DNA of 64,000 bases, taken from the NCBI RefSeq assembly GCF_017876315.1, contig NZ_JAGINU010000001.1, forward strand, positions 2,604,001 through 2,668,000. The letters run 5' to 3'. Of the stretch, positions 2,177 through 18,066 are shown one piece after another. The first letter of the stretch is position 1. Each line of letters starts with the position of its first letter. Origin of the DNA: Pseudonocardia parietis (GTDB lineage: Bacteria; Actinomycetota; Actinomycetes; Mycobacteriales; Pseudonocardiaceae). Both the position numbers and the translations under genes were made by a program. Under the pieces are notes generated by a model. The model searched no databases and had not been told where the DNA came from. It saw nothing but the letters and a program-made list of their open reading frames with translations.

Positions 2177-2989
2177 TCACGGCATCCGCGTCCCGGCGCC
2201 GGCGGCCGGACCCGATGCGAGCAGTCGCCCGGCTCCCGCGATAGCGGGCGTGTGACCGAGGCGGGTCAGTACCTCGTAGGCCGTTGCCGTTGCTGCAGTG
2301 ATGACCGGCAGTCCGAGTTCGTCCTCCACCCGTTGCACCGCGGGCAACGACGGCATCTGGACGCAGGCGGACAGGACGATCGCGTCGGCGTCGTCCTGTC
2401 GCAGGGCCCGGGCGATCTCGGGCAGCTGCTCGGGATCGAGTCGGCCGACCGCGAGATTGTCGGGTACCTCGAGGGCGACGGCGTCGAGGACCTCGATTCC
2501 CTCGCCCTCGATGTACTCCTTCACCATGCGGGTCAATGGCGCCATGTACGGGGTGACGATCGCAACCCGCGACCAGCCGAAGGCGCGGAGCGTGCGAACG
2601 AGCGCACCCGCGCTGCTGACCACCTCGGCGGGATGGCCGTTCTGCCGTGCTGCGTCGGCGATGACCTGTTCAGACTCTTTGTGGGCGCCGGGGCCTTGCG
2701 CCATGACCGCGACCAGGCAGGCGTAGGCGATCACGTCGACGGCGGCGTCGGACACCGCAGTAGCGCACTCGCCGGCGCGGCGCACCATGGCCTGGAGCTC
2801 GTCGGGGGTGACCTGCTTCATCGCGGCCCGGCCGGAGTGGAAGGTGTATCGCTGACCGGTGGCCTCGGTCTGCCGGCGGAACAGCTCTGGGAGCTCGGTC
2901 TCCATCGTGGTGTTGGAGCTGGGCACGATCAGCCCGATGCGCGACAGCGCCGCGGGAGCGGTCGACGTGCCGGTGGGGTGGTCGGTCAT
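2177..2989 (-). CDS. nicE: Maleate isomerase (maleate cis-trans isomerase)
   Basis: This 270-residue protein of the Asp/Glu racemase superfamily converts maleate to fumarate, the last step of the 2,5-dihydroxypyridine branch. The family signature VPSSNTTMETE lies near residues 22-32. The two catalytic cysteines are Cys91 (YACLVAVM) and Cys209 (LSACVQMPS), as in characterised maleate isomerases, and the length is normal. Its start ATG at 2989 overlaps the stop of the preceding molybdenum-hydroxylase gene in an ATGA overlap, so it is translated as the last gene of the operon. Resemblance to Pseudomonas NicE is clear over the full length. Confidence 0.93.
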   Translation of the reverse strand: MTDHPTGTSTAPAALSRIGLIVPSSNTTMETELPELFRRQTEATGQRYTFHSGRAAMKQVTPDELQAMVRRAGECATAVSDAAVDVIAYACLVAVMAQGPGAHKESEQVIADAARQNGHPAEVVSSAGALVRTLRAFGWSRVAIVTPYMAPLTRMVKEYIEGEGIEVLDAVALEVPDNLAVGRLDPEQLPEIARALRQDDADAIVLSACVQMPSLPAVQRVEDELGLPVITAATATAYEVLTRLGHTPAIAGAGRLLASGPAAGAGTRMP

Positions 2990-5439
2990 CAGTACTCGAT
3001 TCCTCCGTCGGGAAGGCCCGAGGGCGTTGGTGTGAGCTCGGTGCCGCGGGACGTCGTCTGGCCGGCGAGCGCGTTCCAGACCGCCTCGGGCGTGATCGGC
3101 AAGGCGCTGAGTTCGACCCCGAAGTCGGCGAGGGCATCGCAGACCGCATTGGCGACGGCTGCTCCGGGTGGGATGGTCCCCACCTCACCGACGCCGCGGA
3201 CGCCGAAGGGCGTGACCGGTGAGGGCACCGTGGTGTGGCGGAGCTCCACCCGGGGAAGATCGGCGGCGGTCGGGACGAAGTAGTCCATCATGGATCCATT
3301 GACGAGCTGACCGCTGTCGGCGTCGTAGCGCAGCTCCTCGGTCAGCGCTGCTCCGAATCCCTGAGCCAGCCCACCGCGGACCTGGCCGTCGACGACCGTG
3401 GGATTCACGATCGTCCCACCGTCGTGGACCATGACGAACCGCTCGATGTCGAACTCGCCGGTCTGCGAGTCCACGGCGACCTGCGCCGCGGCGGTACCGA
3501 ACGAGTAGGCCGCGTCCGACGGCTCGAAGTGCGCGGTCGCCTCCAGCCCGGGCTCCTCCTCAGGAGGCATCCCCTGGCCGGTGATCGCGGTCGTGTAGAC
3601 CGTCGCCAGCGGGACCGCTCGGGAGTGGTCGGTCCGGACCCGGACCGCGGAGCCGATGATCTCGACGTCGTCGACCGACGCGTCGAGGCGCCAGGCCGCG
3701 ATCCGTCGTGTCTTGGCGGCGAGCTGCTCGGCCGCCGCCCGCAAAGCGCCCGAGGCGGCGATCATGGTCCGGGAGGCGAAGGCACCGGTGTTGAGGGGCG
3801 ACGTGGCGGTGTCCCCGGCGTGGACTCGAATCGCGTCGTAGTCGGTGCCGAACACATCGGCTACGACCTGCGCGAAGGCGGTCTCGCCGCTCTGCCCCAT
3901 CGTGGACACACCGGTGTAGACGTCGATCCCACCGGACCGGTTGGCGCGCAGCGTGACGCTCTCGTGGGCGCCGAACATCGAGCCCCGGCGAGCGAGGAAC
4001 CGCGCGCTCGCATACCCGGTGCGCTCCACGAACGACGAGAACCCGATTCCGACGAGCCGGCCGTCCGCCCGCGGTGCCCGGCCGCGAGCGCGGTGCCCGG
4101 CCCAGTCCACGGCGTCTGCCGCCATGCGCAGGCACCGCTCGTAGTCGCCGCTGTCGTAGACCGCACCCGTCGGATTGCGCCAGGGCATGTCCTGCGAGGT
4201 CACCATGTTACGGGCCCGAAGCTCGACCGGATCGAGGTTCAGACGGCGCGCGAGCTGGTCCATCAACCGCTCGTAGGCGAAGTTCACCTCTGGCTGGCCG
4301 TACCCGCGGTACGCTCCGATTGGCGTCTTGTTCGTCAGCGTCACGCGGCGTTCGGTGTAGCCGTCGTCGACCTTGTAGGGGCCGTTGAACACGACGCTGG
4401 AGAGCTGGGCGGAGCCGAAGGGTGAGTTCCAGCCGCCGATGTCGGTGGCGTAGACGTTCGTCATCGCGAGGATGCGGCCGGTCGCGTCCGCGGCGATGCG
4501 GTAGTCGTGCACGGATTCGCGGGCGTGCGTGCTCCCGCGGAAGTGTTCGCCACGGTCCTCGGACCATTTCACCGGTCGGCGGAGTGCGATGGCGTGCAGG
4601 CAGGCCAGGACGTCCTCTGGGAAGACGCCCAGCTTCAGCCCGAATCCGCCGCCGACGTCCGACGCGACGGCACGGATCTCGCTCTCGCCGAGCCGGAGGA
4701 TTTCGGCGAGCTCCTTGCGGATCAGATGGGGGACCTGCGACGAGCAGTGGACGGTGAGCTCACGAGCCCCGGGACGCCACTCGGCGACCACTCCCCGGGT
4801 CTCCATCGGGAGCGCGGTCACCCGGTTGATCCGGAAGCGGCCCTCCACGACGACGTCGGCCTGGGCGAACCGGGAGTCCGGGTCGCCGCTGCCGTCGGAG
4901 TTGGCGGCCAGGAGATTGGAGTCCAGGACCGAGGGATGCAGCACCGGCGCGTCGGGTTCGAGAGCGGCCAGGACGTCCACGACGTGCGGCAGGGGTTCGT
5001 AGGTGATGTCGAGGAGTTCGAGCGCGTCCTCGGCGACGTGCCGGCTGTTCGCGACGACGCTGACGACCGGTTGCCCCTCGTGTGTGGCGACGTCCTGGGC
5101 GAGCGCGTAGTACGGCAACCTCGGCGCGCCCGGTACCGGGCGGAGGACGGTCAGCGGCTCGGTGCACCGCCGGACGTCCGTCGGCGTCAGGACGTGCTCG
5201 ACGCCGGCGAGCGCCGCCGCGGCGCTCGTGTCGACGTGCGCGACCCGTGCGTGCGGGTAGGGGCAGCGGGCCACGGCCATGTACAGCACCCGTGCCGGCT
5301 CGACGTCGTCGGTGAAGCGGCCGTCACCGCGGAGCAGGCGGTCGTCCTCCTTGCGGAGCTGCGAGGTGCCGATGATTCGGCGTCGACCGCCCGTGTCGCC
5401 ACGCTCGGCGCCGATTGAGGGTTCTTCCAGAATGGTCAT
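2989..5439 (-). CDS. Molybdenum hydroxylase large subunit (xanthine oxidase family), probable 3-hydroxypyridine hydroxylase
   Basis: The product is about 816 residues and has the molybdopterin-binding large-subunit architecture of the xanthine dehydrogenase/CO dehydrogenase family. It begins IGTSQLRKEDDRLLRGDGRFTDD, typical of CoxL-like proteins, and carries GGGFGLK in the cofactor-binding part and GVRGVGEVG near the C terminus, which holds the conserved active-site glutamate. A CO-dehydrogenase-type active-site cysteine loop is not evident, which favours an aromatic N-heterocycle hydroxylase. ATG at 5439 was chosen because it overlaps the stop of the 2Fe-2S subunit gene. By context it hydroxylates 3-hydroxypyridine to 2,5-dihydroxypyridine together with the subunits encoded at 5436, 9169 and 8490. 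Substrate is inferred from the neighbours. Confidence 0.85.
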   Translation of the reverse strand: MTILEEPSIGAERGDTGGRRRIIGTSQLRKEDDRLLRGDGRFTDDVEPARVLYMAVARCPYPHARVAHVDTSAAAALAGVEHVLTPTDVRRCTEPLTVLRPVPGAPRLPYYALAQDVATHEGQPVVSVVANSRHVAEDALELLDITYEPLPHVVDVLAALEPDAPVLHPSVLDSNLLAANSDGSGDPDSRFAQADVVVEGRFRINRVTALPMETRGVVAEWRPGARELTVHCSSQVPHLIRKELAEILRLGESEIRAVASDVGGGFGLKLGVFPEDVLACLHAIALRRPVKWSEDRGEHFRGSTHARESVHDYRIAADATGRILAMTNVYATDIGGWNSPFGSAQLSSVVFNGPYKVDDGYTERRVTLTNKTPIGAYRGYGQPEVNFAYERLMDQLARRLNLDPVELRARNMVTSQDMPWRNPTGAVYDSGDYERCLRMAADAVDWAGHRARGRAPRADGRLVGIGFSSFVERTGYASARFLARRGSMFGAHESVTLRANRSGGIDVYTGVSTMGQSGETAFAQVVADVFGTDYDAIRVHAGDTATSPLNTGAFASRTMIAASGALRAAAEQLAAKTRRIAAWRLDASVDDVEIIGSAVRVRTDHSRAVPLATVYTTAITGQGMPPEEEPGLEATAHFEPSDAAYSFGTAAAQVAVDSQTGEFDIERFVMVHDGGTIVNPTVVDGQVRGGLAQGFGAALTEELRYDADSGQLVNGSMMDYFVPTAADLPRVELRHTTVPSPVTPFGVRGVGEVGTIPPGAAVANAVCDALADFGVELSALPITPEAVWNALAGQTTSRGTELTPTPSGLPDGGIEY

Positions 5440-5993
5440 GTCAGCCCTGGGTCGCAGTGGTCTCGGTGGCCGGCCGGGAGGGGATCCGCCGGGCTGCCCT
5501 GCGGGTTCTCCATGAACCAGCGCTCGATGGCAGCCACGACGTTGTCGTAGCCGGTGCACCGGCACAGGACTCCGGCGATCTCCTCGCGAATCCCGTCCGG
5601 ACCCGGCCGGCAGCTCTGGTGTGCGAGCGCGGTCGCGGTCATCAGGAAGCCCGGGGAGCAGAAGCCGCACTGCAGAGCGTGTTCCTCTTTGAAGGCCTGC
5701 TGCAGGGTGTTGAGCTCGTCCCCCTCCGCGAGCGATTCGACGGTCCGGACGTCGCGGCCGTCGACCTGGCACGCCAGCATCAGGCACGACTTGACTGCCT
5801 CACCGTCGACGATCACGGTGCACATCCCGCAGGCGCCCTGCTCGCAGCCGATGTGTGTCCCGGTGAGACCGAGGTGCAGACGCAGGAAGTCAGCGAGGTG
5901 CAGCCGCGCGGGGACGTTCGCCCGCACGACGCGTCCGTTGACCGTGGTAACCGTCTCGACGAGCAGCTCTTCGGGTGCCTCGAGGCCGCTCAC
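5436..5993 (-). CDS. Molybdenum hydroxylase 2Fe-2S small subunit
   Basis: This 185-residue subunit carries two [2Fe-2S] clusters that pass electrons from the molybdenum centre to FAD. The plant-type cluster ligands are Cys50, Cys55, Cys58 and Cys70 (CEQGACGMC then C), and the second cluster uses CGFC at 109-112 and CRC at 144-146, followed by TGY. This is the standard CoxS/small-subunit layout at normal length. The GTG start at 5993 overlaps the stop of nicX (GTGA) and the stop overlaps the large-subunit ATG. It sits next to the large subunit, whereas the FAD subunit is encoded about 3 kb upstream in the same operon. Confidence 0.93.
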   Translation of the reverse strand: MSGLEAPEELLVETVTTVNGRVVRANVPARLHLADFLRLHLGLTGTHIGCEQGACGMCTVIVDGEAVKSCLMLACQVDGRDVRTVESLAEGDELNTLQQAFKEEHALQCGFCSPGFLMTATALAHQSCRPGPDGIREEIAGVLCRCTGYDNVVAAIERWFMENPQGSPADPLPAGHRDHCDPGLT

Positions 5994-7036
5994 CGTCGGT
6001 TCACCGGGCGCATCTCGGGCACGGTCAGCTCGCCGGCGTCGACGATCAGCTCGTCGTCGAGATACAGCGAGTTGCCGCGCATCGGGATGTCGAAGTGGCA
6101 CGCGGTGTCGTTCGGGCCACCGAGCTCGTTGTTCGGGCCGATCGAGAACATCACGTTGCCGTAGAAGGAACGAAGCTCCATACCCATCCCGCCACCGAAC
6201 TGGGTCAGCCCGTGCCAGTGCGCCCGCTCGTCCAGACCCCACCCGACATGCGACATCCCGTAGCCACGCGGGTCGTCGAAGCTCTTGATGTAGGAGGCGA
6301 GCAGATCCGCATCCAGGCCCGAGGAACCCTTCCCGCCGCGGATGTCGCGGATGAACCCGGCCTCGATGGTGATCTCCACCGGGGTCTGCACATAGGTGTT
6401 GAACGGCAACAGGACGTCCCCGGGGGCGAGGACGATCTTCCCGTCGACGCCGTCGTCGGAACCACCGGTGAACACGAACGCCGCCGGCCAGTGGTCCCAC
6501 CGGCCCGGGGTGTCGGTGTAGCCGTACTCCGACAGGGTCGGGTACATGCCCAGCTGGTAGGTCACATCCGTGCCGTGCGGGCTGGTGATCCGCATCGTGG
6601 AGGCCTTGGCCAGCAGCTCCGCCCCGGTCTCCACCCGCTCCCGCAGCTCGGTCGTGGGCATCAACCGCGCCAGCAGCTCCGGCGGCTCCACCGCGGTCAG
6701 GATCCGCGTGCCGGCGTCCTGGATCGCGAACTGCTCCGGGGAGAACAGCAGGAACGTGCAGTCCACCACCATGTCCGCGGCCTTGAGCGCATCCACCGCG
6801 AGGGGGATCCGGCCCAGCCCGGAGTCCCCGACCGCCCACGCCCCACCCGCGCTCGCCGGCGACGGCAACCGCATGTGATACCCCGTCGCGCCCAGCTTCT
6901 GGATCGCCCACAGGAACGCATCCGCGTACTCGCCGCGCTCCCCACCCCGGGTCAGCACCACCACCGTCTCGCCCTCGTGCACCCCGGACAGCGTCAGCTG
7001 CTGCAGGCAGATGTCGTTGAACAGGTTCTGGTCCAT
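5990..7036 (-). CDS. nicX: 2,5-dihydroxypyridine 5,6-dioxygenase
   Basis: This 348-residue iron(II) dioxygenase opens the ring of 2,5-dihydroxypyridine to N-formylmaleamate. Similarity to Pseudomonas putida NicX is visible along the whole length: GTRIL(T/L)AVEPPE, EYGYxDxPGRWDHWP and a C-terminal half ending in CHxDIP. The expected metal ligands are present as His263 (SHVGWG), His314 and Asp316 (CHFDIP). It follows nicD after a 6-bp gap and overlaps the 2Fe-2S gene by four bases. It is the diagnostic gene of the cluster, because 2,5-dihydroxypyridine is reached from nicotinate or 3-hydroxypyridine. No 6-hydroxynicotinate monooxygenase gene is present here, which favours 3-hydroxypyridine. Confidence 0.94.
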   Translation of the reverse strand: MDQNLFNDICLQQLTLSGVHEGETVVVLTRGGERGEYADAFLWAIQKLGATGYHMRLPSPASAGGAWAVGDSGLGRIPLAVDALKAADMVVDCTFLLFSPEQFAIQDAGTRILTAVEPPELLARLMPTTELRERVETGAELLAKASTMRITSPHGTDVTYQLGMYPTLSEYGYTDTPGRWDHWPAAFVFTGGSDDGVDGKIVLAPGDVLLPFNTYVQTPVEITIEAGFIRDIRGGKGSSGLDADLLASYIKSFDDPRGYGMSHVGWGLDERAHWHGLTQFGGGMGMELRSFYGNVMFSIGPNNELGGPNDTACHFDIPMRGNSLYLDDELIVDAGELTVPEMRPVNRR

Positions 7037-7042
7037 GGCTGG

Positions 7043-7879
7043 TTACTCCTTGGGTTCGAGGTAGGACAACAGATGCGGGCGAAGGGCGTCGAGGAAGCCG
7101 GCCAGGTCGTCCCACGGCACCATGTGCCCGGTATCGGCGACGCTCAGCATCGGGATGTCCGGGCGGGCCCGGTGTAGCTCGTCGGCCGTGTCGGCCGGCA
7201 CGACCGGGCTGTCGGCCCCGCGCATGAGGAGCACCTCCCCGCGCAGAGCGGTCCAGTAGTCGACGAAGTCCTCGGTCTCGAAGCCTTCGTGGGTCTCGAC
7301 AACGGCGGTCTCGTCGCAGGTGGCGAGGAAGCGGGCGCGCAGCTCCAGCTCGCGCTGCGGCCATCGCGGGTAGAACGCGCGCACGCCGTCGGCGTCGGTT
7401 CCGGCCTGGGCCTGCCGGAGCTGGTCGAGGAACGCCTGCCGCGTCGTGGGATAGGGACGGCGGCCGGGTCCGGAGGTCGGCGGATCGACCAGCACCAGAG
7501 GCCCGTGGTCGTCGGGGGCGTGGCGGACCGCGTAGGCCGCGGCGATCCGGGCACCCATCGAGTGACCCACGATCACTGGATTATGCAGGTCGAGCGCCTC
7601 CACGAGCCCGGCGACGTCGGCGGCGTAGTCGACCAGGCGGTGACATCCCGACGGGGCCCGGTCGCTCTCCCCGCGTCCTCGCACGTCCGGCACCGTCACC
7701 CGGTAACCCGGTTCGGCCAGCCGGACGGCGAGGAAGTCCGCACAGGCCGCCGGAGTCGTGATGCCTGGGAGGAGGAGCAGCGGACGATCGCCTTCCCGCC
7801 CGTAGCGCAGCACCCGGTGCCGGAGGCCGTTCGCCCACACCGTGCTGCTCGCTCCCGCGAGTTCGGCCGATGCGGTCAT
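7043..7879 (-). CDS. nicD: N-formylmaleamate deformylase (alpha/beta hydrolase)
   Basis: This 278-residue alpha/beta-hydrolase releases formate from N-formylmaleamate, the product of NicX, giving maleamate. The nucleophile elbow GHSMGA places the catalytic serine at residue 107, the oxyanion region LLLLPGITTP lies near 34-43, and the C-terminal histidine is in DTGHMVPWDD. ATG at 7879 was chosen because it overlaps the stop of the upstream HD-domain gene (ATGA); a longer frame exists but has no family homology. Position immediately before nicX supports the NicD assignment over a generic esterase. Confidence 0.88.
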   Translation of the reverse strand: MTASAELAGASSTVWANGLRHRVLRYGREGDRPLLLLPGITTPAACADFLAVRLAEPGYRVTVPDVRGRGESDRAPSGCHRLVDYAADVAGLVEALDLHNPVIVGHSMGARIAAAYAVRHAPDDHGPLVLVDPPTSGPGRRPYPTTRQAFLDQLRQAQAGTDADGVRAFYPRWPQRELELRARFLATCDETAVVETHEGFETEDFVDYWTALRGEVLLMRGADSPVVPADTADELHRARPDIPMLSVADTGHMVPWDDLAGFLDALRPHLLSYLEPKE

Positions 7880-8493
7880 CGTTGCGGTACCTCCGTCTCC
7901 GACTCCGTCGGGAGCTGGTCGAGGGCCCACGCCAGGAGCGGGGCCGCGTACTGGGCGGCAGCGGGGGTTCGCACGCGGTCGGTCATGTAGCGCAGCTTGC
8001 GCTCGGCCTGCGACCGCGAGCAGACGCCGGAGCGGACCCAGTCGCGCGTCAGGCCCGCGAGGGTCTCGAGGAACGACAACGAGTCCGCCGCCTGGACCTC
8101 GTCGGCGCCGTCGATGCCGCCGACCTCGTGCAGCCCGACCAGACGCCGGATCTCGGCCCGGTCGACGGTGGCGGCCACCGGGCCCAGGTTCCCGAGCCAC
8201 ACCGTGACGACCTCGGCCGATCGCAGCATGTGCGGGAAGAGGTAGTCCGGGTCGTCCCATCGCCCGTCGGCGTGCCGGAGGACCGGCCCACCCGGGAACA
8301 TCCGCTCGATGTCGTGGGTCAGCGCCGCGATCCGCATCTCGGCCGTCGCCGCGGACGCGAGGTGCACGAGCCAGTCCCGCGCCCGCACCAGGTGCTCGGC
8401 CTGGTCGTACGCTGCGATCCACTCGGTGGCGAGCGCCTCGACCTCGCCGTGTGCCTCCACGCGCGGTGCCGTCCAGGGCATCGATGTGCTCAT
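7876..8493 (-). CDS. HD-domain protein of the hydroxypyridine operon
   Basis: The 205-residue product has a helical fold with an HD signature (RIAALTHDIERMFPG, residues about 55-70) preceded by a helix that could supply a metal-binding histidine. HD proteins are metal-dependent phosphohydrolases or related enzymes. The gene is locked between the SRPBCC subunit and nicD by four-base overlaps on both sides, so it is almost certainly part of the pathway. An attractive but unproven role is hydrolysis of a phosphorylated pyridine intermediate made by the PEP-synthase-like pair upstream. Start ATG at 8493 reads MSTSMPW. I do not know a characterised close relative. Confidence 0.72.
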   Translation of the reverse strand: MSTSMPWTAPRVEAHGEVEALATEWIAAYDQAEHLVRARDWLVHLASAATAEMRIAALTHDIERMFPGGPVLRHADGRWDDPDYLFPHMLRSAEVVTVWLGNLGPVAATVDRAEIRRLVGLHEVGGIDGADEVQAADSLSFLETLAGLTRDWVRSGVCSRSQAERKLRYMTDRVRTPAAAQYAAPLLAWALDQLPTESETEVPQR

Positions 8494-9125
8494 CGCGCGC
8501 GCCGATTCTGCCAGACGGCGACCGCGCCGAGGGCCGCCGATACGGCACTCAACACCACGGAAGCGACCGTCCAGTGGTCGGGCCCGCGGCGAGTGGGAAG
8601 CGCCGGTGCGGTCGAGGTGGAGGCACGGTCGGTGAAGACCGCTGTGCCGATCGAGGGGCGCGAAGTCGGCGCCGGGACGCCGCCGAGAGCGCTCTCGAGG
8701 TTCCGGGAGAACGTGGTGGTGACCTTCCCCACCTGCTTGGCGACGACCTTCTGTCCCACGCTGCCCAAGGCGCCCGCGAGGACCACATCGCCGTCGACCG
8801 AGACGGTCGTCCGGTCCGGCCCTGCGGCCTCGACCTGCACGGTGACGGTGGCTCGGACGTTGCCCATGGCCCCACGGACGGACTTTCCGGTCGCGGTGAA
8901 GGCGATGAGCTTCTCCGGCACCCGCTCGACGATCTTCACCGCCGCTGCGAAGGTGGCCGACATGGGGCCGACGCTCTGAGTGATCCGGACGTCGATGTCG
9001 TCGGGCCCGGTCAGCACCAGGTCCTCGACGCCGGGCACACAGCCGGCCACCTTCTCGGGGTGCTCGAAGAACGCCCACACCGAGGTCAGCGGCTGCGCGA
9101 CCTCGAATTCCTCACGGAGTTGCAT
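8490..9125 (-). CDS. CoxG-like SRPBCC subunit with C-terminal membrane anchor
   Basis: This 211-residue protein belongs to the CO-dehydrogenase subunit G (SRPBCC) family: FExxxPLTSVWAFFEHPEKVAGCVPGVE at the start and SVGQKVVAKQVGKVTTTF near residues 120-140. A proline-rich linker is followed by a single membrane segment at about 186-205 and a basic tail, so it may hold the hydroxylase at the membrane. In the reported 3-hydroxypyridine dehydrogenase a stand-alone SRPBCC protein is a fourth enzyme subunit; this gene fits that role. ATG at 9125 is preceded by the ribosome-binding site GGAAGAGAG. The upstream gap of 43 bp is the widest in the operon. Confidence 0.85.
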   Translation of the reverse strand: MQLREEFEVAQPLTSVWAFFEHPEKVAGCVPGVEDLVLTGPDDIDVRITQSVGPMSATFAAAVKIVERVPEKLIAFTATGKSVRGAMGNVRATVTVQVEAAGPDRTTVSVDGDVVLAGALGSVGQKVVAKQVGKVTTTFSRNLESALGGVPAPTSRPSIGTAVFTDRASTSTAPALPTRRGPDHWTVASVVLSAVSAALGAVAVWQNRRAR

Positions 9126-9168
9126 GATCTCTCTTCCACCCGCGGACGCCGCCGCGGGCACGTCGGGG

Positions 9169-10029
9169 TCACGGGCGCGGGGCCCGCAGGTCGTTCAGCG
9201 CGCGGCGGAGGTGGACCGGCAGCAGGTGGCGCCGGTAGGCCGCGGACGCACGCACATCGGAGGGCGGATCGATGACCTCCGCAGCGGCCGCGGCCGCCGC
9301 GTCGAGGTCGGCGTCGGTCAGGCGCGAGCCCTCGAGTCCGTTCGCCGCCGCGGTGGCGAGCACGGGGCTGTCCGCCACGCCGCCGAGGGCGATGCGGACA
9401 TGGCGCCAGATGCCGTCGGCGTCCCGGTCGCCCGTGACCACCACACTGACGACCGCGAAGTCGTTGTGCTTGCGGCAGTACTGGCGGAACGCGACGTGCT
9501 GCGGGCGCCCCGGGAAGTCGACCGCGACGAGCAGCTCGTCCGGTTCGAGCACTGTGGCGTACGAGCCCGTGTACAGCTCCGCGACGGGGATACGGCGCAC
9601 GCCGTCCGGCCCGACCACGACGACGGTCGCGTCGAGCACGAGGCAGGCCAGGGGCATCTCGCCGGTCGGGTCGCCGTGCACAAGGGATCCGCCGATGGTG
9701 CCCCGGTTGCGGACCTGCCGGTCGCCGATGTGGGTCACGATCCGCGAGAGCAGCGGCAGCCGCTCGGTCACGAGTGGCGAGCGCTCGAGGGTCGAGTACC
9801 GGACCAGTGCGCCGATCTCGGTGCGCTCACCGTGGACGCGCAGGTCGTCGAGCTCGTCGATCTCGTTGATGTCGACGAGCGCGTCGGGCCGCCAGAGCCG
9901 CATGTTGAGCATGGGGACCAGGCTCTGGCCACCGGCGAGCACGCGGGCGCCGCCGGCGTGCTCGCGCAGGTGTGTGACGGCCTCGGTGACGGTGTTCGGC
10001 CGGTGGTAGGCGAAGCGCGCGGGTTTCAC
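9169..10029 (-). CDS. Molybdenum hydroxylase FAD-binding medium subunit
   Basis: The 286-residue product is a CoxM-type FAD subunit. FAD-binding motifs are GGQSLVPMLNMRL near residues 32-44 and TIGGSLVHGDPTGEMP near 110-125, followed by the CO-dehydrogenase flavoprotein C-terminal domain. It accepts electrons from the 2Fe-2S subunit and passes them to an external acceptor. The GTG at 10029 overlaps the stop of the PEP-synthase-like gene (GTGA). It is separated from its partner subunits by five genes, yet all lie on the same strand and most overlap, so stoichiometric co-expression is likely. Confidence 0.92.
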   Translation of the reverse strand: MKPARFAYHRPNTVTEAVTHLREHAGGARVLAGGQSLVPMLNMRLWRPDALVDINEIDELDDLRVHGERTEIGALVRYSTLERSPLVTERLPLLSRIVTHIGDRQVRNRGTIGGSLVHGDPTGEMPLACLVLDATVVVVGPDGVRRIPVAELYTGSYATVLEPDELLVAVDFPGRPQHVAFRQYCRKHNDFAVVSVVVTGDRDADGIWRHVRIALGGVADSPVLATAAANGLEGSRLTDADLDAAAAAAAEVIDPPSDVRASAAYRRHLLPVHLRRALNDLRAPRP

Positions 10030-11120
10030 GACGGACGCTTCGCCGCGGCGACACCCGTGCCGGAGAACCTGGCCAACACGTGCCCGACCGCTGACTTCGG
10101 CGCCGCCACGAGTTGCTCGGCCCGGCGCTGCGCCCAGACCGTCTCCGGGCGCACCTGCAGGACGAACACCTCGCCGGCCTCGGAGACCGCCCACTCGATG
10201 TCCTGTGGGGCGCCGCGGTGGTGCTCGATCCGCTTGGCCAGCTTGGCCAGTGCGTCGATCTCCTCGTCGGTCAGGCAGGGTCGCTGGTGCCGGTCCTCGG
10301 GCACGGGGACGAGACCGACCACGCCCGTGGCGGGATCGACGCCGTACGCGGACTCCTGCGGTGTCAGCTCGCGTCGGACGACCTCGAAGGTCACCTTGTC
10401 GACGACGAAGCGGCTCGGCGTGACGCCGCCGCCGACCACCCCCTCGCCCAGGCCCCAGCACCCCTCGACGACGACTTTCGAGCGGTCGCCGGTCACCGGG
10501 TCCAGGGTGAACATGACGCCGGCGGAGCGCGCCTCCACCATCCGCTGCACGCCGACGCAAATGCCGTGGTCGGCGAGCACCGCGTCCGCGGTGGCCTCCG
10601 GCTTGTAGGTCAGCACGGCCGGGCCGAACATGCCCGCCCAGCACCGGCGGACGTGTGTCAGGACGTCGTCGACGCCACGGATCCACAGGAAGGTGTCGTA
10701 CTGCCCGGCGAAGCTGGCCCCGGCCAGGTCCTCGGACTCCCCGCTCGACCGGACGGCGACCGGCAGGTCGGCGCTCCCGGTCTCCTGCTCGAGTCGGGCG
10801 TAGGAGGAGCGGATGGCGTCCTCGAGGGCCGGCGGCACGGCCGCGCCCTCGATCTCAGCCGAGAACTCCGCGCTCAGCTGTTGGACGCGGGCCAGGTCGG
10901 CATCGCGCGCCTCGGCCCGCACCGTGCGGGCAGCGTCTGCCAGCCCGGACTCGGCGAGGAAGTAGCGATAGGCAGAGGTGGTGACGCCGAACCCGGGCGG
11001 GACGGCAAACCCGGCCGCGGTCATCTCGGCGAGGCTGCCGAACTTCCCGCCGAGCAGCGGGCTGGCGACGGCCGCGGGGTCGTCGATCCGGAGAACGAAG
11101 GGGGTCTCCGTCGTGGTCAT
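10026..11120 (-). CDS. PEP synthase/pyruvate phosphate dikinase-like ATP-binding subunit
   Basis: This 364-residue protein is the ATP-grasp (nucleotide-binding) half of a PEP synthase-type dikinase standing alone. It contains GGKFGSLAEM near residues 24-33, VAVRSSGESEDLAGASFAGQ near 122-141, and FVLQVRPET near the end, all hallmarks of the PEP/pyruvate dikinase N-terminal domain. Its partner with the swivelling histidine is encoded just upstream with a four-base overlap. The size pair (about 40 and 70 kDa) equals that of Thauera phenylphosphate synthase, which phosphorylates phenol with ATP. A dikinase-like protein of this type was reported to be required for 3-hydroxypyridine dehydrogenase activity in Ensifer. 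True substrate unproven. Confidence 0.88.
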   Translation of the reverse strand: MTTTETPFVLRIDDPAAVASPLLGGKFGSLAEMTAAGFAVPPGFGVTTSAYRYFLAESGLADAARTVRAEARDADLARVQQLSAEFSAEIEGAAVPPALEDAIRSSYARLEQETGSADLPVAVRSSGESEDLAGASFAGQYDTFLWIRGVDDVLTHVRRCWAGMFGPAVLTYKPEATADAVLADHGICVGVQRMVEARSAGVMFTLDPVTGDRSKVVVEGCWGLGEGVVGGGVTPSRFVVDKVTFEVVRRELTPQESAYGVDPATGVVGLVPVPEDRHQRPCLTDEEIDALAKLAKRIEHHRGAPQDIEWAVSEAGEVFVLQVRPETVWAQRRAEQLVAAPKSAVGHVLARFSGTGVAAAKRPS

Positions 11121-13000
11121 GCGGTCACGTCCTCAAGCACGCGGACGACGCCGTTGCCGCCGTCGACCTCGATGAGCTGTCCGGTCCTAATGGTGGTGGT
11201 GGCGAAGCCCGTGCCGACGACGGCCGGGAGGCCGTACTCACGGCACACGATGGCGGTGTGCGCCATGATGCCGCCGACGTCGGACACGGCGGCCGAGAGC
11301 CGGGAGAAGACCGGCGCCCAGCTCGGCGCGGTGATGCGGCAGACGAGGATATCCCCGTCCTCGACCTCGTGGAGCTGTTCGGGGTCGAGGATCACCCGGG
11401 CCTTGCCGGTCGCCTTCCCTGCAGAGGCGGCCACGCCGTTGAGCCGGTTCGGGTCCTGACCCTCGGAGCCGAGCCACTCCTGCACCGACTCCTGGTTGAT
11501 TCCCCAGAGCATCACCGTCAGGGGTTCGGTGATGTACTCCGGCGGCACACCGAGCGCGGGCTGCGGCGGGTTCGCCTTGAGCACCTCGCGGATGCGCTGT
11601 CGGCGCTCGACCTCCGGCCGCCAGTACGTGACGCCCCGTGCCTGGGTCCCGGTCGCCCACCCGATGTTGAGGTCGTAAAGCGCCGAGTAGATCTCGTTGC
11701 GGTGCAGGTAGAAGATGTCCTCGCGGTCGTCGAGGAAGTCGTGCGCGACGAACACGTCGCCCAGTTCGCGCACCTTCGACCAGAATATCGAGTGGTGCCA
11801 GTGCTCGACGTAGAAGTTGTGGTTCTCGACGAACGGGAAGACCTTGCGCGCGAGTTCGACGAGCCCGTCGAACGACTCCCGGTCGGCATCGGTAGGCAGG
11901 TAGGTGCGGTACTCGTCGGTGACCCGGACCCGTTCAGCGAGGATGGCCTCGAGCGGGCGCTCGATCTCGTGACCGTCGAGCAGGGTCTTGATGTAGCCGC
12001 GCAGGGCGGTGAACGGCAGTCGCAGGTCGTCGATCCACGCGCGGTCGCTGTGCTGGTATCCGGCTCCGGTGGAGAACCAGAACCACGGGTCCTTGGCCTG
12101 CTCGAAAGCCTCGATCCAGCGGCCGCCGACCGGCTGGGCGGCGACCGCGGCGATGGCGGCATCCGGGTCCTCGTGGGTGAGTAGCTGCTCGGTCAGCCCG
12201 AGGTCGACGGCGAGCCTGGCCAGCGCGCGGATCTCGTCGTCGGGCCGAAACAGCATGATGTCGATGCCGGAGACCATGCTCGCTATCGTCTGGTCAGTGA
12301 TCCCCGGGAAGGCGGCCTGACAATACTCGCGGAACGTCAGGTAGGCGCCGTAGCCGAGATTGAGCATCTCGAAGTGGTAGGAGCCCATCTCGAATAGGTT
12401 GTGGATGAGCTCGCTGTAGCTGGTGAGCAGATCGTAGGTGGAGTACAGCCCGCGATGGGAGAAGACCGCGGACTCCGACTCCTTGCCCGGCAGCGGCGCG
12501 AAGCTGATCTGCTTCAACCGTTCGATGCAGTCGGTCGCCTTGGCCACCCACTGCTCGTAGATCTCATCCCAGTTCTCGTAATAGTGTCCCGCCCGCACCT
12601 CGAAATCCCCCGCCCGAGCGGCGATCTCGTCGGCGTCGACCACAGCGTTCGGGCTGATATAGAGGTAGCCGTTGATGATGCGCTGATCGATCCCGCCGGC
12701 CAGCGGGATGGGCCACACCCGGGTGGACATCTGGCTGACCGCGACCCACCAGTTCTCGGTCATGATCGTGTCGAACGGGTAAAGCGGCTCGGGATTGTGC
12801 ATCCCGTCGAAGAACCAGAACTTGCCGTCCTCGAACTCCGCGCGCTCCGTGCTGAGCAGCGCGTAGTACGGGTACATGCTTTCCCAGCCCTCGGCGCCGG
12901 GGGGCGTCGTCACCGCGAACGGGCTGGCGAATCGCTTCCCGGGAACCGCCTGAGCGGGCTCGCCCGGCACAGGTGTGGAATCAGGACTCGTGATGGTCAT
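11117..13000 (-). CDS. PEP-utilising swivelling-histidine subunit, phenylphosphate synthase-like
   Basis: The product is about 627 residues. Its last 100 residues form a PEP-utilising mobile domain with the phosphohistidine motif GGIMAHTAIVCREYGLPAVV; the histidine is at about residue 581, close to its place in the 70-kDa Thauera phenylphosphate synthase subunit. The first 450 residues are rich in Trp, Tyr and His and probably form the substrate-binding part. No pyruvate/PEP TIM-barrel domain of a full PEP synthase is present. It overlaps the amidase gene before it and the ATP-grasp gene after it. The pair likely phosphorylates a hydroxylated ring substrate; this is inference from the family and the neighbours. 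Confidence 0.87.
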   Translation of the reverse strand: MTITSPDSTPVPGEPAQAVPGKRFASPFAVTTPPGAEGWESMYPYYALLSTERAEFEDGKFWFFDGMHNPEPLYPFDTIMTENWWVAVSQMSTRVWPIPLAGGIDQRIINGYLYISPNAVVDADEIAARAGDFEVRAGHYYENWDEIYEQWVAKATDCIERLKQISFAPLPGKESESAVFSHRGLYSTYDLLTSYSELIHNLFEMGSYHFEMLNLGYGAYLTFREYCQAAFPGITDQTIASMVSGIDIMLFRPDDEIRALARLAVDLGLTEQLLTHEDPDAAIAAVAAQPVGGRWIEAFEQAKDPWFWFSTGAGYQHSDRAWIDDLRLPFTALRGYIKTLLDGHEIERPLEAILAERVRVTDEYRTYLPTDADRESFDGLVELARKVFPFVENHNFYVEHWHHSIFWSKVRELGDVFVAHDFLDDREDIFYLHRNEIYSALYDLNIGWATGTQARGVTYWRPEVERRQRIREVLKANPPQPALGVPPEYITEPLTVMLWGINQESVQEWLGSEGQDPNRLNGVAASAGKATGKARVILDPEQLHEVEDGDILVCRITAPSWAPVFSRLSAAVSDVGGIMAHTAIVCREYGLPAVVGTGFATTTIRTGQLIEVDGGNGVVRVLEDVTA

Positions 13001-13707
13001 GCAGGGACCTCTGACTTGGGCTTGGTGGCGGGCGGGCGTGCGGTCTCGGGGCCGAGGAGCGTTTCGGCCGCGCCGACCGGTCGGGTGAGGTAGTCGATGA
13101 CCTCTTCGAGGTCGACGACGTCGCCGTACTTCTCGTCGATGTCGAACAGACTCGCGGCGTGGGGACCGGGAGCCCGGTCGGCGACGCACTCCTGCGGGAC
13201 CAGGCTCGGGAAGCCGTACTGGACCGCGTCGACCACGGTCGCGCGGACGCATCCACTCGTCGTGGCACCGGCAACGACGACCGTGTCGACGCCCTTCGAG
13301 ACCAGGTACGTCGCCAGGCCCGTTCCGAAGAAGGCCGACGCACCGGTCTTGACGATGATGTGCTCGTCGGGCCGACCGCCGAGGCGGTCGTCGATCTCCA
13401 CGAGCCGGCTCCCCGCCGTCAGCGCAGCCATACCCTTGGCCTTGCGTAGCCAGGTGAGTCCGCCGACCTGCCCCGGGTCGTAGGCGATGGTCGTAAACAC
13501 GACGGGCACGTCCGCGGACCGCGCAGCGGCGAGCAGGCGCCCCGTCGCCAGCACGGGCCCGGTCATGTCCGCGCCCGTCGGGTAGGCGGGGTCGGTGAAG
13601 CCGAAACTAAAGTCGACCACCACCACCGCGGGCTGGGCCCCCCGTGCCAGGGAATGGCCGAAACCTGCGCGATCGTACACATCGACCGTGTTGGGCTCGT
13701 CGTCCAC
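12997..13707 (-). CDS. nicF: Maleamate amidohydrolase (isochorismatase family)
   Basis: This 236-residue cysteine hydrolase converts maleamate to maleate and ammonia. The catalytic triad is visible as Asp32 (VVVVDFSFGFTDP), Lys120 (IIVKTGASAF) and Cys153 (ATTSGCVRATVVDA). The chosen GTG start at 13707 has the ribosome-binding site GAGAGGAG five bases upstream. It is the first gene of the leftward operon, directly behind the intergenic region shared with the GntR gene. With NicX, NicD and NicE it completes the route from 2,5-dihydroxypyridine to fumarate. Confidence 0.9.
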   Translation of the reverse strand: MDDEPNTVDVYDRAGFGHSLARGAQPAVVVVDFSFGFTDPAYPTGADMTGPVLATGRLLAAARSADVPVVFTTIAYDPGQVGGLTWLRKAKGMAALTAGSRLVEIDDRLGGRPDEHIIVKTGASAFFGTGLATYLVSKGVDTVVVAGATTSGCVRATVVDAVQYGFPSLVPQECVADRAPGPHAASLFDIDEKYGDVVDLEEVIDYLTRPVGAAETLLGPETARPPATKPKSEVPA

Positions 13708-14231
13708 CGATACTCCTCTCACGGCGTCGTGATCCGGCGTCAGCGGCATGTATAGCAGGCGACGGCATACGTGTATACCACCTGCCGTCCACCGACCGTG
13801 TCGATCGCCGGCAGTGCGCTCCACGGGCGACATGGGAGGAAGGCAGGCCGTCGGCGGCGAATGCTGCCGGACAACCGCGCTGAGGTCGTGGCTCCCGCGT
13901 CCTCGCACCAAGGACGGCAAGCGCCCTTCGGCCGTGCGGAGACCGTCTACCGCTGCGGTGTGCCGTAGGGGCTTGACCAGCAAGCCGGCTCCGGCTGACC
14001 AGGAACCGCACACGCTGCCTTCTGCCACGTCGTCGAATGTTGCGATGCTGGCCGGCGGTGTCTCGTGCGGCGCGTTCGCCGGTGTCCTCGCCCGGCAACG
14101 AACGGGCAGAGCCCTGCAACCGTCCTCCATGGCCGCGGCGAACGCGTGTGCCCGTATCGTCATCGATCAGGAAAGGTCCGCACGTGAGACAAAGCGGCGG
14201 ACGATGGACCGCCCAGAACGGAGACCGGTAC
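13708..14231. promoter_or_regulatory. Divergent control region of the hydroxypyridine operon and its GntR gene
   Basis: This 524-bp gap separates nicF (leftward) from the GntR gene (rightward) and must hold both promoters. The part near nicF is AT-rich for this genome: TGTATAG at about 13749 and GTGTATACCA at 13771-13780. The GTATAC core at 13773-13778 is the type of palindrome often bound by FadR-class GntR proteins. It lies about 65 bp upstream of the nicF start, a reasonable operator position. I see no gene in the remainder. Confidence 0.5.
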
Positions 14232-14921
14232 ATGCAGCTCTCGGAGCCTAACACCGTTCCGCTGTCGCAACGCACAAGCGAGGGCGTCGCCCGAGTCCTG
14301 CGCGAGGAAATCTTCTCCGGTAATCTCAAGCCAGGAGAATCGCTGCCGGAGCGGACGCTTGCCGAGGGCCTCGGTGTCAGCCGCACCCCCGTTCGCGAGG
14401 CGCTGTTCACGCTGCAAAGCGAAGGCCTTGTCGAACTTACGCCCAATCGAGGCGCAACAGTGCGCAGAATCACCTCGAAGGACATCGTGCAAATTTACTC
14501 GTTGCGTGCCGTTCTGGAGGCGTACGCGGCCGCGGAGGCCGCTCGCACACGCACTCGGAAGGACATCGACGCGCTCCTCGACGCCCAGGCCAAACTTGAA
14601 CGCGTCGGCGTATCCGGCACGGCACACGAACAGGCACTTGCCGACCTAGCGTTCCACAGACTGATCAGCGACGCGACTGGAAGTAGTTTGCTGCGAACGA
14701 TCATGGGGCAAGTGCTTGCGTTCACCGTGAGCTACCGATCCCGCTATTCCTACCCGGCCGAACGTGCCGCTCTCGCGATCGAGCAGCACCGCAATATTCT
14801 CGAGGCCTTACGAGCGCAGGACAGCGAGCTGGCCGAGCGGCTCATGGCCGAGCATGTCGAATCATCCCGCGAATTCGCTCTCAAGCATTTCGACGAGAGC
14901 GAGAATGCTGTAATTCCGTGA
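14232..14921 (+). CDS. GntR-family regulator (FadR/VanR type), probable controller of the hydroxypyridine operon
   Basis: The 229-residue product has a GntR winged-helix domain at about 12-80 (SEGVARVLREEIFSGNLKPG, then LAEGLGVSRTPVREAL) and an all-helical FCD ligand-binding domain with conserved acidic/histidine metal-site residues (DLAFHRLI, EQHRNILEAL). FCD regulators usually sense an organic acid and repress the adjacent catabolic genes. It is divergent from nicF. Its codons end in A or T more often than in neighbouring genes (for example CTT, ACG/ACT, CAA, AAT), suggesting a different history. ATG at 14232 is preceded by GGAGA. Confidence 0.88.
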   Translation: MQLSEPNTVPLSQRTSEGVARVLREEIFSGNLKPGESLPERTLAEGLGVSRTPVREALFTLQSEGLVELTPNRGATVRRITSKDIVQIYSLRAVLEAYAAAEAARTRTRKDIDALLDAQAKLERVGVSGTAHEQALADLAFHRLISDATGSSLLRTIMGQVLAFTVSYRSRYSYPAERAALAIEQHRNILEALRAQDSELAERLMAEHVESSREFALKHFDESENAVIP

Positions 14922-15617: not shown

Positions 15618-17083
15618 GGGGCTCTTCCGGTTTTAGAGTGCGAGGGTTCCGCAGTGCAGCAGCGATCGGATGCGGTAGTTGATCAGGTTGCGGAAGCCCA
15701 GGGCGTTGCGCCGCAGCGCTTCGAGGCGGCCGTTGATGGCCTCGGTCGGGCCGTTCGAGGCCGGTGGTCGAAGTAGGCCAGGATGTCGTCTCGTCGCCGG
15801 TGCAGCGTCCTTCCCAGGGTGGCGAGCTCGTCGAGCCCTGCCGGTAGCCCTGCGCGCAACCGGTCGATCACAGCGGCGAGCAGGGTCTTGCCGCGTTGAC
15901 GGTTCTGATCGGCGTAGGCGGCGATGATCTGCTGATACGCCCACCACGTGACCTCGACCGCGACGTGGTCATCGGCGGCGAACACCGCCTCGAGCCGGGC
16001 CCTCTGCTTGTCGGTGAGCAACCCGAGGCGGGTCCGCAGGATGCGACGTGCCCGGTAGAGCGGGTCACCGGTGCGGCCGCGGTGGCCGAGGGTGTCCTGC
16101 TGGACGCGTTGGCGACACAGGTCGAGCTTGTGCCCGGCCAGCGCGACGAGGTGGAACGGGTCCATCACCGTGACCGCGTCCGGGACAGCGTCGGTGGCAG
16201 CGTTCTTGTAGCCGCCGAACCCATCCATCGCCACGACCCGGACTCCATCTCGGAAGGCCTGGTCGCGGGCGTCAAGCCAGGTCCTCATCGCCGCCGCCGA
16301 GCGCCCCGGGACGAGGTCGAGCAGACGTGCGGGTCCCCGACCTGCGACGACGTCGGTCAGATCAGTGATCACGGTGACGAACCCGTCACCCGCTGCGCCG
16401 AACACACGGGCCCACTTGTGCTCGTCGACCCCGATCACCCGGACACCGTCGAGCCGGGCGGGGCCGACGGTGAGCAGTAGCTGCTCGGTCGCGGCGACCG
16501 CGACGCTGTTCACGGCGTCCCAGCTCCGGCCGAGCTCTCGGGCGACCGCGGCGACGGTGGCCTTGTCGATCGCCAAACGGCGCAACACATACTCCGCGCA
16601 GCGCCGGGTGGTCGAGGCTCCGGGGCGAGCCAACCGGCTGCTGTCGTGGGCGAAGATCTCGCACGCACAACCGTCATGGACACACCGGTAGCGCGGCACC
16701 CGGACCCGCAGTGGCAGCGGATGCCCGACCACCGGGACGTCGCAGACGCGGCGCTCGACGCTGTCGCGATAGACCCCGGCCAACCCGCAGCCCGGGCACG
16801 CCCGGGTCCGTCGGTGATCAGGTCGCACCACAGCACCGTGGTCTCGCCGTCGAGGGCGGCGTCGGCAATCCGCACGCCGAGCTCGACGGTACGGACGATC
16901 GTGTCGGCCACGATCTGGGCAGGCGGGCACGTAGGCTGCGACATCGGGTCCCCGGGCTTGTTGATGGTGTTCGGCGTAGGAACCTTCATCATCGACTTCT
17001 CGGGGCCCGCCTCACCGCAGCGACACGACCCCACTCCCGCGGTCGATCACGCCTCACCTGCACTCCATTTCCGGAAGAGCCCC
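15618..17083 (-). mobile_element. ISL3-family insertion sequence, 1,466 bp
   Basis: The ends carry inverted repeats: GGGGCTCTTCCGG at 15618-15630 and its complement at 17071-17083, with similarity continuing another 12 or so bases (GAGTGC). Length is normal for ISL3. The expected 8-bp target duplication is not found: the left flank is ACGTCAAT and the right flank is TTA followed by an IS5 element. The element therefore probably lost its original right flank through a rearrangement. The transposase inside is frameshifted. Confidence 0.85.
15633..16944 (-). pseudogene. ISL3 transposase, two frameshifts
   Basis: Assembled over three frames, the product is a complete ISL3 transposase. The N terminus MSQPTCPPAQIVADTIVRTV starts at 16944, and the zinc-finger-like CPGCG and C-x4-C part and the DDE catalytic core (VIGVDEHKWA, MDGFGGYKNA) follow in a second frame. 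The C terminus with GPTEAINGRLEALRRNALGF is in another frame. The shifts lie near 16800 and near 15765-15775. Unless rescued by programmed frameshifting, which is not typical of this family, the enzyme is inactive. Confidence 0.8.
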
Positions 17084-17086
17084 TTA

Positions 17087-18066
17087 GAGCGTCCGGCAAA
17101 TGAGGTCGCCGCGTGTCGTTGCAGGTAGAGGCACGGACCCAGAAGTGATCATGGGATTGCTGAAGTCCTGTGATCGCCTGGAGGGTCCGTGCCTCTGTTG
17201 CCAGCATCCCTGATCGAGCCGCTGTGGGTCGAGTTCGCTGACCTGATCGGGTCCGAACGACGGCCCGAGTTCTCCCCGACCCATCCGTGGGGCTGTCATC
17301 GTCGCCGGATCCCGGACCGGGTCGTGTTCGAACACGTGCTCGCCGCGCTGGTGCACGGCAGCGGCTACGAACGCCTCGCCTCACCGGGCTGCTCGGACCG
17401 CACCATCCGCCGCCGCCTTGACGACTGGGCCCGGGCCGGCGTCGGTCGAGAAACGCTGCGCCAGGCCCTGGCCGGCTACGACCAGATGATCGGACTCGAC
17501 CTCGATGACCTGTCCGTGGACGGGTCGATCACCAAGTCCCCGTGCGGCGGTGAGGTATCCGGGCGCAGCCCGGTTGACCGGGGCAAACAGGGCACCAAAC
17601 GCTCGGTGGCCGGCGACGGGAACGGGATCCCGCTGCACCTGGTCGCCGCCCGCGCCAATGATCACGACTCGCCGTTGCTCGAACCCACCCTGGCCGGGGT
17701 TTGCGACATGATCGGTCCGTTGCCCGATCTGCCGGGCATGCATCTGGACCGGGGCTACGACTCGGCCAAGACTCGCGACCTGCTCGAGGTCCTCGGCTAT
17801 GACGCCCACATCGCGCTCAAGGGCGAACCCGCCCCGATCCAGGCTGGGCGGCGGTGGCCGGTCGAGCGCTTGCACGCGTGGATGAACGGGTTCGGCAAGC
17901 TGCGCCGGTTCACCGACAAGCGCCGCGACATCGCCGAGTTCTACCTCAACCTCGCCGCCGCGTTGACCGTGATCCGCCGCCTGATCAACCGCGCACGCGT
18001 GCTCTACCGCTGGCCCACCCGGCCGACCACCCGCCGACTCCGCTGAACATCATTTGCCGGACGCTC
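17087..18066 (+). mobile_element. IS5-family insertion sequence with TTA target duplication
   Basis: Perfect inverted repeats GAGCGTCCGGCAAATGA bound the 980-bp element, flanked by TTA on both sides (17084-17086 and 18067-18069). A 3-bp TNA duplication fits the IS1031-like subgroup of IS5. The right TTA is also part of the TTAA that flanks the following IS1380 element, so IS5 inserted into the IS1380 target duplication. The element is intact and may be active. Confidence 0.9.
17189..18046 (+). CDS. IS5-family transposase
   Basis: This 285-residue DDE transposase has the IS5 layout. The N-terminal DUF4096-type region contains DRVVFEHVLAALVHGSGYERL and a helix-turn-helix with CSDRTIRRRLDDW. 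The catalytic residues appear as Asp in LSVDGSITK, Asp in MHLDRGYDSAKT, and Glu in VERLHAWMN. GTG/ATG context at 17189 follows the left terminal repeat by about 100 bp. The frame is uninterrupted and ends 20 bp before the right repeat, so the element looks complete. Confidence 0.93.
   Translation: MPLLPASLIEPLWVEFADLIGSERRPEFSPTHPWGCHRRRIPDRVVFEHVLAALVHGSGYERLASPGCSDRTIRRRLDDWARAGVGRETLRQALAGYDQMIGLDLDDLSVDGSITKSPCGGEVSGRSPVDRGKQGTKRSVAGDGNGIPLHLVAARANDHDSPLLEPTLAGVCDMIGPLPDLPGMHLDRGYDSAKTRDLLEVLGYDAHIALKGEPAPIQAGRRWPVERLHAWMNGFGKLRRFTDKRRDIAEFYLNLAAALTVIRRLINRARVLYRWPTRPTTRRLR

Follow-up and report, generated by a model that had tools for sequence, protein, structure and literature searches.

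Why should an operon for the oxidation of a hydroxypyridine carry two kinase-like proteins and an HD-fold protein? The question is raised by a 64,000-nucleotide stretch of Pseudonocardia parietis DNA (contig NZ_JAGINU010000001.1, positions 2,604,001 to 2,668,000; hereafter the window), taken from a genome of 8.1 Mb in 4 contigs. A single minus-strand operon in it runs from an amidase gene to a gene of the Asp/Glu racemase family and encodes a split dikinase, a molybdenum hydroxylase, an HD-fold protein and a dioxygenase of the NicX type (Table 1). The cluster type itself is already in print: Wang reportedly described in 2020 a 3-hydroxypyridine dehydrogenase (HpdA) cluster of Ensifer adhaerens HP1, in which a separate SRPBCC protein is said to occur and PEP-utilising and PPDK-like proteins are said to be needed for a role left unexplained.

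The operon probably couples a module for phosphate-primed hydroxylation to a ring-opening pathway for 2,5-dihydroxypyridine, with three catalytic steps that we infer ahead of the ring opening. The ATP-grasp protein would charge the swivel protein at His581, and the phosphate would be passed to the hydroxyl group of a hydroxypyridine, most likely 3-hydroxypyridine. The four-subunit molybdenum hydroxylase would then oxidise the carbon of the phosphoester that adjoins the ring nitrogen; masking of the electron-donating oxygen should ease the attack of the Mo-bound hydroxide on that carbon. The HD protein would strip the phosphate to give free 2,5-dihydroxypyridine. In the fourth and best-supported step, the NicX-type dioxygenase would open the ring, followed by the deformylase, the amidase and the isomerase. 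The anatomy of the operon, its conserved motifs, the predicted fold and the gene linkage are established; the catalytic activities, the substrate and the order of the first three steps are proposed.

The preliminary description, made from the letters of the DNA, had recognised the kinase-like pair as a split ATP-grasp and swivelling-His system of 364 and 627 residues with no PEP/pyruvate barrel and a histidine near residue 581, and this was borne out. A PPDK_N match spans residues 21-337 of the 364-residue ATP-grasp protein (E 8e-93), and the 627-residue swivel protein has the mobile His domain (PEP-utilizers) at its C terminus, residues 547-617, as its sole Pfam match at E 0.001. No PEP/pyruvate barrel domain was found in either protein at E 0.001, nor in the 627-residue protein at E 10. 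The motif SDVGGIMAH, which fits S/TxxGGxxxH, places the swivel histidine at residue 581, and His581, Ser/Thr573, Gly576 and Gly577 are invariant in 80 of 80 aligned swivel rows. The swivel protein also matches NF006153, a 'hypothetical protein' subfamily (E 6e-234), and shares 97% identity with its P. ammonioxydans counterpart. The best solved relative of the ATP-grasp protein is PDB 9goj, deposited under the name 'Phosphoenolpyruvate synthase'; from the length of the chain (387 residues) and the paper, it is presumably HpeI. A separate swivel protein with the motif and full-length homology thus stands beside a separate PPDK_N protein, the make-up of a two-component aryl dikinase; by homology, the pair would be such an enzyme, and phosphorylation of an aromatic hydroxyl group by it is predicted.

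Three kinases of this kind, CreHI, PpsAB and HpeHI, phosphorylate phenolic substrates; HpeH, CreH and PpsA are about 45% identical to one another, and HpeH carries the S/TxxGGxxxH motif and stays active as a C580A variant (PMC12167813). Aligned with the window swivel protein, two cre-type proteins show 46-47% identity (610 columns), a pps-type protein of Azoarcus KH32C 45% and an hpe-like protein of Rhizobium 44% (602 columns each). These labels were assigned from gene neighbours (biotin-carboxylase and HAD genes in the hpe-like case), and the cre-type sequences are those of two Rhodococcus plasmids, not of Corynebacterium glutamicum. In a tree of 80 swivel rows, from which four duplicate loci (L039-L042) and matches of 450 residues or fewer were excluded, every swivel protein that adjoins a hydroxylase of the window clade falls within one 50-row group (SH-aLRT 100), and the cre, pps and hpe-like references fall outside it. 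This tree was made by a quick method with no bootstrap, and long branches were flagged for Thermomicrobium roseum and the pps reference, so that only the 50-row group is used here; some contigs are short, and a hydroxylase is not visible for all 50 rows. HpeHI of Rhodococcus rhodochrous GD02, which acts with HpeCBA and HpeD, is like the window pair in its two components and in Ser573, Met579 and His581, with the same numbering and motif; HpeH has Cys before the His, whereas the window protein has Ala. Hpe also differs in that its next step is catalysed by a biotin carboxylase and its phosphatase is NagD-like rather than of the HD type.

The preliminary description had taken phenylphosphate synthase of Thauera as the model. 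PpsAB of Thauera and Azoarcus does share the subunit split, and the Azoarcus relative is 45% identical, but it lies outside the window clade and its adjoining genes encode phenylphosphate carboxylase. A scan of the operon and of 10 flanking open reading frames found no neighbours of that kind, and the gene list for the 19.9 kb displayed of the Azoarcus pps locus has neither a Mo hydroxylase nor an HD gene. The assignment to phenylphosphate synthase proper was rejected on the place of the swivel protein in its own 50-row group (SH-aLRT 100), with one pps reference outside on a long branch. The closer precedent is the 4-cresol (cre) operon, in which a kinase of this type occurs with an HD protein. 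In C. glutamicum (kinase CreHI, P450 CreJEF, phosphohydrolase CreD) and on the Rhodococcus plasmids, it resembles the window operon in bringing together a two-part aryl dikinase, an oxidising enzyme and an HD protein, and in the logic of phosphorylation, oxidation and dephosphorylation proposed here. It differs in that its oxidation is carried out by a P450 acting at a methyl group, and not by a Mo enzyme on the ring, in its kinase clade and in its HD protein, which is distantly similar. Du and colleagues are said to have reported in 2016 that CreD dephosphorylates aryl phosphates. The position of creD, between the genes for ferredoxin reductase and aldehyde dehydrogenase, is occupied by an HD-domain protein in both Rhodococcus cre-type operons, and a gene list of the C. 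glutamicum cre cluster gives creD as 'phosphohydrolase' (PMC7764795).

The HD protein of the window has no Pfam match even at E 10 when it is searched without its initial Met, and none again at E <= 0.1 in a scan of its 31-member family, in which 21 of the 31 members match DUF4202 and 12 match HD. The best fold matches of its predicted model, taken from VIA-align, are HD hydrolases including YpgQ and YedJ, followed by alarmone hydrolases. The protein combines a predicted HD fold with the conserved metal-binding His and Asp residues that mark the HD phosphohydrolase superfamily. Weak relatives (E 7e-18 to 7e-24) occur in L125-L128 and in two Pseudomonadota genomes, L152 and L153 (L numbers denote loci); no kinase match at E 1e-60 was found in the four Actinomycetota genomes among them (L125-L128), and all six are possibly DUF4202-like proteins of other function.

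The hydroxylase consists of a Mo large subunit, a FAD subunit, an FeS subunit and a separate SRPBCC gene, which we take to be the definition of a cluster of the 3hpd/HpdA type. Of these, the FAD and SRPBCC subunits alone lie within the interval of the preliminary description, 7876 to 13000; the FeS and Mo subunits lie outside, at 2989-5993. The large subunit, which has an AYRG loop, finds its closest solved relative by sequence in quinoline 2-oxidoreductase 1t3q (E 3e-149). Quinoline 2-oxidoreductase hydroxylates next to the ring nitrogen, and Mo hydroxylases of this type attack the electron-poor carbon adjoining that atom; quinoline 2-oxidoreductase is not known to have a kinase or HD partner. 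A free 3-oxido group would donate electrons to the ring, and a phosphate ester would donate less. The ERTGYAS stretch of the large subunit is present in 29 of 32 clade rows; Arg301 is found in 32 of 32 and Arg473 in 29 of 32, neither being basic in 7 outgroup rows, and Arg480 is also Arg in quinoline 2-oxidoreductase. We tentatively suggest that Arg301, Arg473 and Arg480 could bind phosphate. Carbon monoxide dehydrogenase was considered and rejected as an identity: the Cys of the AYRCSF loop is an active-loop residue of CoxL, and in the window this loop is replaced by IGAYRGYG. A membrane role for the CoxG homologue of the HpdA cluster has been proposed, according to a mention in PMC11962113.

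The NicX-type protein keeps all six of the aligned residues, namely the Fe ligands His265, Ser302, His318 and Asp320 together with Glu177 and His189, and has Phe98 at the position of His105. In NicX, Glu177 and His189 contact free 2,5-dihydroxypyridine, and the H105F variant still yields product (PMC7910607). Because the residues for the free compound are kept, any phosphate should be off before ring opening. The route of Agrobacterium DW-1 leads from 3-hydroxypyridine via 2,5-dihydroxypyridine to N-formylmaleamate (PMC6525221).

Gene linkage is strong and reaches beyond Pseudonocardia. A scan of species genomes with the swivel protein gave 57 loci, which with L038 make 58 mapped loci. All six kinase and hydroxylase genes are present in 31 of the 58; in the other 27, one of the six is missing or the Mo large subunit is not nearly whole, many being short contigs and others belonging to kinase clades without this hydroxylase. 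The rows of this core count are not independent, as several are close relatives, and the kinase pair was part of the selection. In the 31 core loci the HD gene is found in 29, NicX in 23, the deformylase in 22, the amidase in 21 and the isomerase in 20. The HD gene lies less than 1 kb from the core on the same strand in 27 of its 29 loci, and its nearest core gene is that for SRPBCC in 16 (Actinomycetota), for the Mo large subunit in 10 (all Pseudomonadota) and for the swivel protein in 3. Because the neighbour differs among loci and the distance stays short, the HD gene has moved yet remained. The arrangement recurs in Actinomycetota and Pseudomonadota and so is not due to chance. Over 23 loci, distances of the HD protein correlate with those of the other proteins with rho 0.63-0.77, and those of the swivel or ATP-grasp protein with those of the Mo large subunit with rho 0.94, values that cannot tell function from co-inheritance in one operon. 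NicX is absent from the fetched stretch in six Pseudomonadota loci with the seven-gene core (L084, L086, L087, L088, L108 and L110); a NicX relative (43-46%) is encoded elsewhere in five of these genomes and none in the sixth. In L080, one of the 27 loci outside the core count, the sequence breaks inside the Mo gene, and two HD matches lie on other contigs of the same genome.

Samples drawn regardless of the cluster point the same way in Actinomycetota. Among 396 genomes of this phylum, 23 have the swivel protein at E <= 1e-60, 3 have a close HD protein (E < 1e-70) and 4 more a weak one, and 135 have a hydroxylase relative at E <= 1e-120. Among the matches listed, with two candidates scored per genome, hydroxylase identity is at least 54% in 3 of the 135 and 43% in the next best. 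The same 3 genomes, one of them the window's own, hold a swivel protein of at least 59%, the close HD protein and this hydroxylase among the matches listed. Within 200 genomes of the order, the HD protein is matched in 5, strongly in 4: two have the whole cluster on the fetched DNA, one is the window's own, and in the last (G568) the contig stops inside NicX, with amidase, kinase pair, FAD subunit, SRPBCC, HD and hydrolase genes present. With the cre-type HD protein as query, 200 genomes of the order gave 1 match at E 1e-30. A sample of 383 Pseudomonadota genomes adds little to the linkage; its only strong HD match is in the centre genome, itself picked for its cluster. Searched against 72,556 plasmid records, the swivel protein matched 10 (E 1e-40), the HD protein 1 and the SRPBCC protein none.

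A diverged set is carried by a plasmid of Thermomicrobium roseum (L120, 7002-15712), where HD, ATP-grasp, swivel and Mo hydroxylase genes, the last comprising Mo, FAD and FeS subunits, follow each other on one strand over about 9 kb. The HD protein is 44% identical to that of the window over residues 16-177, and the swivel protein (564 residues) 28% identical; the Mo large subunit is far from the window clade, with 268 bits against more than 830 for nearly whole clade members. HD, kinase and Mo hydroxylase genes therefore travel together even when much diverged. The set adds a gene of the fumarylacetoacetate hydrolase family. A second swivel/ATP-grasp pair on the same plasmid (L117, 9986-18462) lies about 2 kb from genes of the xanthine dehydrogenase family, with no HD gene listed in that stretch. 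One ATP-grasp gene stands beside two swivel genes in L038, L090, L092 and L101, which suggests that one ATP-charging subunit may serve two substrate-specific swivel subunits. An extra swivel gene (53-56% identity; partial in L112 and L113) lies immediately downstream of the HD gene in L096, L105, L112 and L113, and Pseudonocardia kunmingensis (L096) has a second full set next to a 37% NicX relative. There is about an even chance that the two-part dikinase, the four-part Mo hydroxylase and the DUF4202-like HD phosphatase form a portable seven-gene module, present in two phyla and, as a much diverged set, in a third, in which a temporary phosphate would open electron-rich hydroxy-N-heteroaromatics to Mo hydroxylation and the swivel protein would be exchanged or duplicated according to substrate.

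Several points limit the support for the reading of the preliminary description. The kinase falls in its own clade, so that phenylphosphate synthase is not its nearest model. Similarity between the HD protein and its Rhodococcus cre-type counterpart is weak (BLASTP E 0.59; hhalign E 0.0013 and 0.0033 with probabilities of 18% and 10%), and the order H, HD, H, H, D is common to both by eye; given weak profile similarity with a common order of metal residues, they are placed together at the level of the superfamily rather than of the family. In two Acidimicrobiia metagenome-assembled genomes (L093 and L098) with kinase and hydroxylase, no HD match at E 0.001 was found in the genome record, where no scan for a substitute phosphatase was made. 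The same two records gave no NicX match at E 1e-20, and tblastn matches their FAD gene as two separate pieces. The phosphorylate-hydroxylate-dephosphorylate logic of the preliminary description is thus supported in part: homology, motif conservation, linkage and the retained NicX site fit it, and no result contradicts it outright. It is the best explanation of the operon, and use of the phosphoester by the hydroxylase is a proposal within it.

The nearest competitor keeps the mechanism and changes the substrate to another hydroxylated N-heterocycle ending in 2,5-dihydroxypyridine or an analogue. It is compatible with the same logic, and the further sets in L096, L112 and L105, together with the six HD-bearing loci of the 31 that lack NicX in the fetched stretch, suggest several substrates. 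For the window itself we think it rather improbable: the NicX-type dioxygenase and the likely maleamate-branch enzymes fit 3-hydroxypyridine, as does the DW-1 route, and five of the six genomes without NicX in the locus have the relative elsewhere. The order of the steps could also be otherwise: the phosphate that the pair adds to a hydroxypyridine might serve trapping or uptake, or might be taken off by the HD protein before hydroxylation, and the hydroxylase would use the free compound. No result fixes the order, and HpeD can slowly cleave the non-carboxylated phosphoester as well; in the same work, however, free substrates are not detectably transformed by the next Hpe enzyme, a carboxylase, and the phosphatase comes after it (PMC9618137). 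Kinase and hydroxylase distances covary strongly, and the two remain together where lower-pathway genes leave, both of which co-inheritance would fit too. On balance such an order is unlikely.

The identity of the HD protein offers a further alternative, namely another HD-fold metalloenzyme such as a diiron oxygenase or a hydrolase of the amide or nitrile type. Its top fold matches are the HD and alarmone hydrolases named above, an HD protein occupies the creD slot of two cre-type operons, and the oxidative steps of the pathway already have enzymes, which leaves this alternative little probability. Even less credit is due to the idea that the targets of the pair and of the HD protein are the hydroxylase or its cofactor, in maturation or regulation, and not the substrate. 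With 29 of 31 loci, the HD gene falls just short of the hydroxylase genes in constancy, as such a role would have it, the constancy of the pair being a product of selection and not a result. The swivel protein, however, is homologous over its full length, substrate domain included, to kinases of small aryl molecules, and other hydroxylases of the superfamily manage without this kinase clade, relatives of the hydroxylase being found in 135 of the 396 genomes against 3 only for the clade. Phosphorylation of the substrate before its hydroxylation remains our preferred account.

The compactness of the operon, which the preliminary description had read as overlapping and as including the HD gene (7876-8493), was confirmed by the coordinates. 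From the amidase gene, which is the first of the operon and was read from a GTG start at 13707, to the Mo large-subunit gene, 4-base overlaps occur at 7 of 9 junctions, with gaps of 43 and 6 bases at the other two, and the Mo large-subunit and racemase-family genes share one base. The divergent GntR/FCD gene encodes a candidate regulator of the operon. Transposase genes of the ISL3 and IS4/5 types lie just past it at 15683-18046, and given these the operon may be located in a mobile or rearranged region.

Table 1. Genes of the operon and its divergent neighbour (positions in the window)
Feature	Position	Strand	Evidence
GntR/FCD regulator, divergent from operon	14037..14921	+	PF07729 E 3e-25, PF00392 E 4e-19
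Isochorismatase-family amidase, likely maleamate amidohydrolase (NicF-like)	12997..13707	-	PF00857 E 7e-36; role from context
Swivel/substrate-binding subunit of two-component dikinase (627 aa, His581)	11117..13000	-	PF00391 at 547-617; NF006153 E 6e-234
ATP-grasp subunit of dikinase (364 aa)	10026..11120	-	PF01326 E 8e-93; PDB 9goj E 5e-67
FAD subunit of molybdenum hydroxylase	9169..10029	-	PF00941 E 8e-49, PF03450 E 3e-22
CoxG/SRPBCC subunit, own gene	8490..9125	-	PF06240 E 4e-17
HD-fold protein, proposed aryl-phosphate phosphohydrolase (205 aa; H34, H60-D61, H88, H122, D137)	7876..8493	-	
Alpha/beta hydrolase, likely N-formylmaleamate deformylase (NicD-like)	7043..7879	-	PF00561 E 2e-24; role from context
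2,5-Dihydroxypyridine 5,6-dioxygenase (NicX-type)	5990..7036	-	PDB 7cn3 E 8e-86; ligands kept
[2Fe-2S] subunit of molybdenum hydroxylase	5436..5993	-	PF01799 E 2e-25
Molybdopterin large subunit of hydroxylase	2989..5439	-	PF20256, PF02738, PF01315; PDB 1t3q E 3e-149
Asp/Glu racemase/arylmalonate decarboxylase family, likely maleate isomerase (NicE-like)	2177..2989	-	PF17645 E 7e-26, PF01177 E 6e-8; role from context

A literature search by title and abstract opening, with subscription papers mostly outside it, gave no match for a mechanism of hydroxypyridine hydroxylation via phosphate. To the known cluster type, this analysis adds a proposed mechanism, a place in it for the HD protein and the definition of a seven-gene core. 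If the mechanism is true, it would give a role to the two kinase-like proteins in hydroxypyridine oxidation and to a family of HD proteins whose only coverage by Pfam consists of weak hits on a domain of unknown function. A Mo hydroxylase would then join the P450 of the Cre pathway, the biotin carboxylase of Hpe and the phenylphosphate carboxylase of Pps among the enzymes that act on phosphate-masked aromatics.

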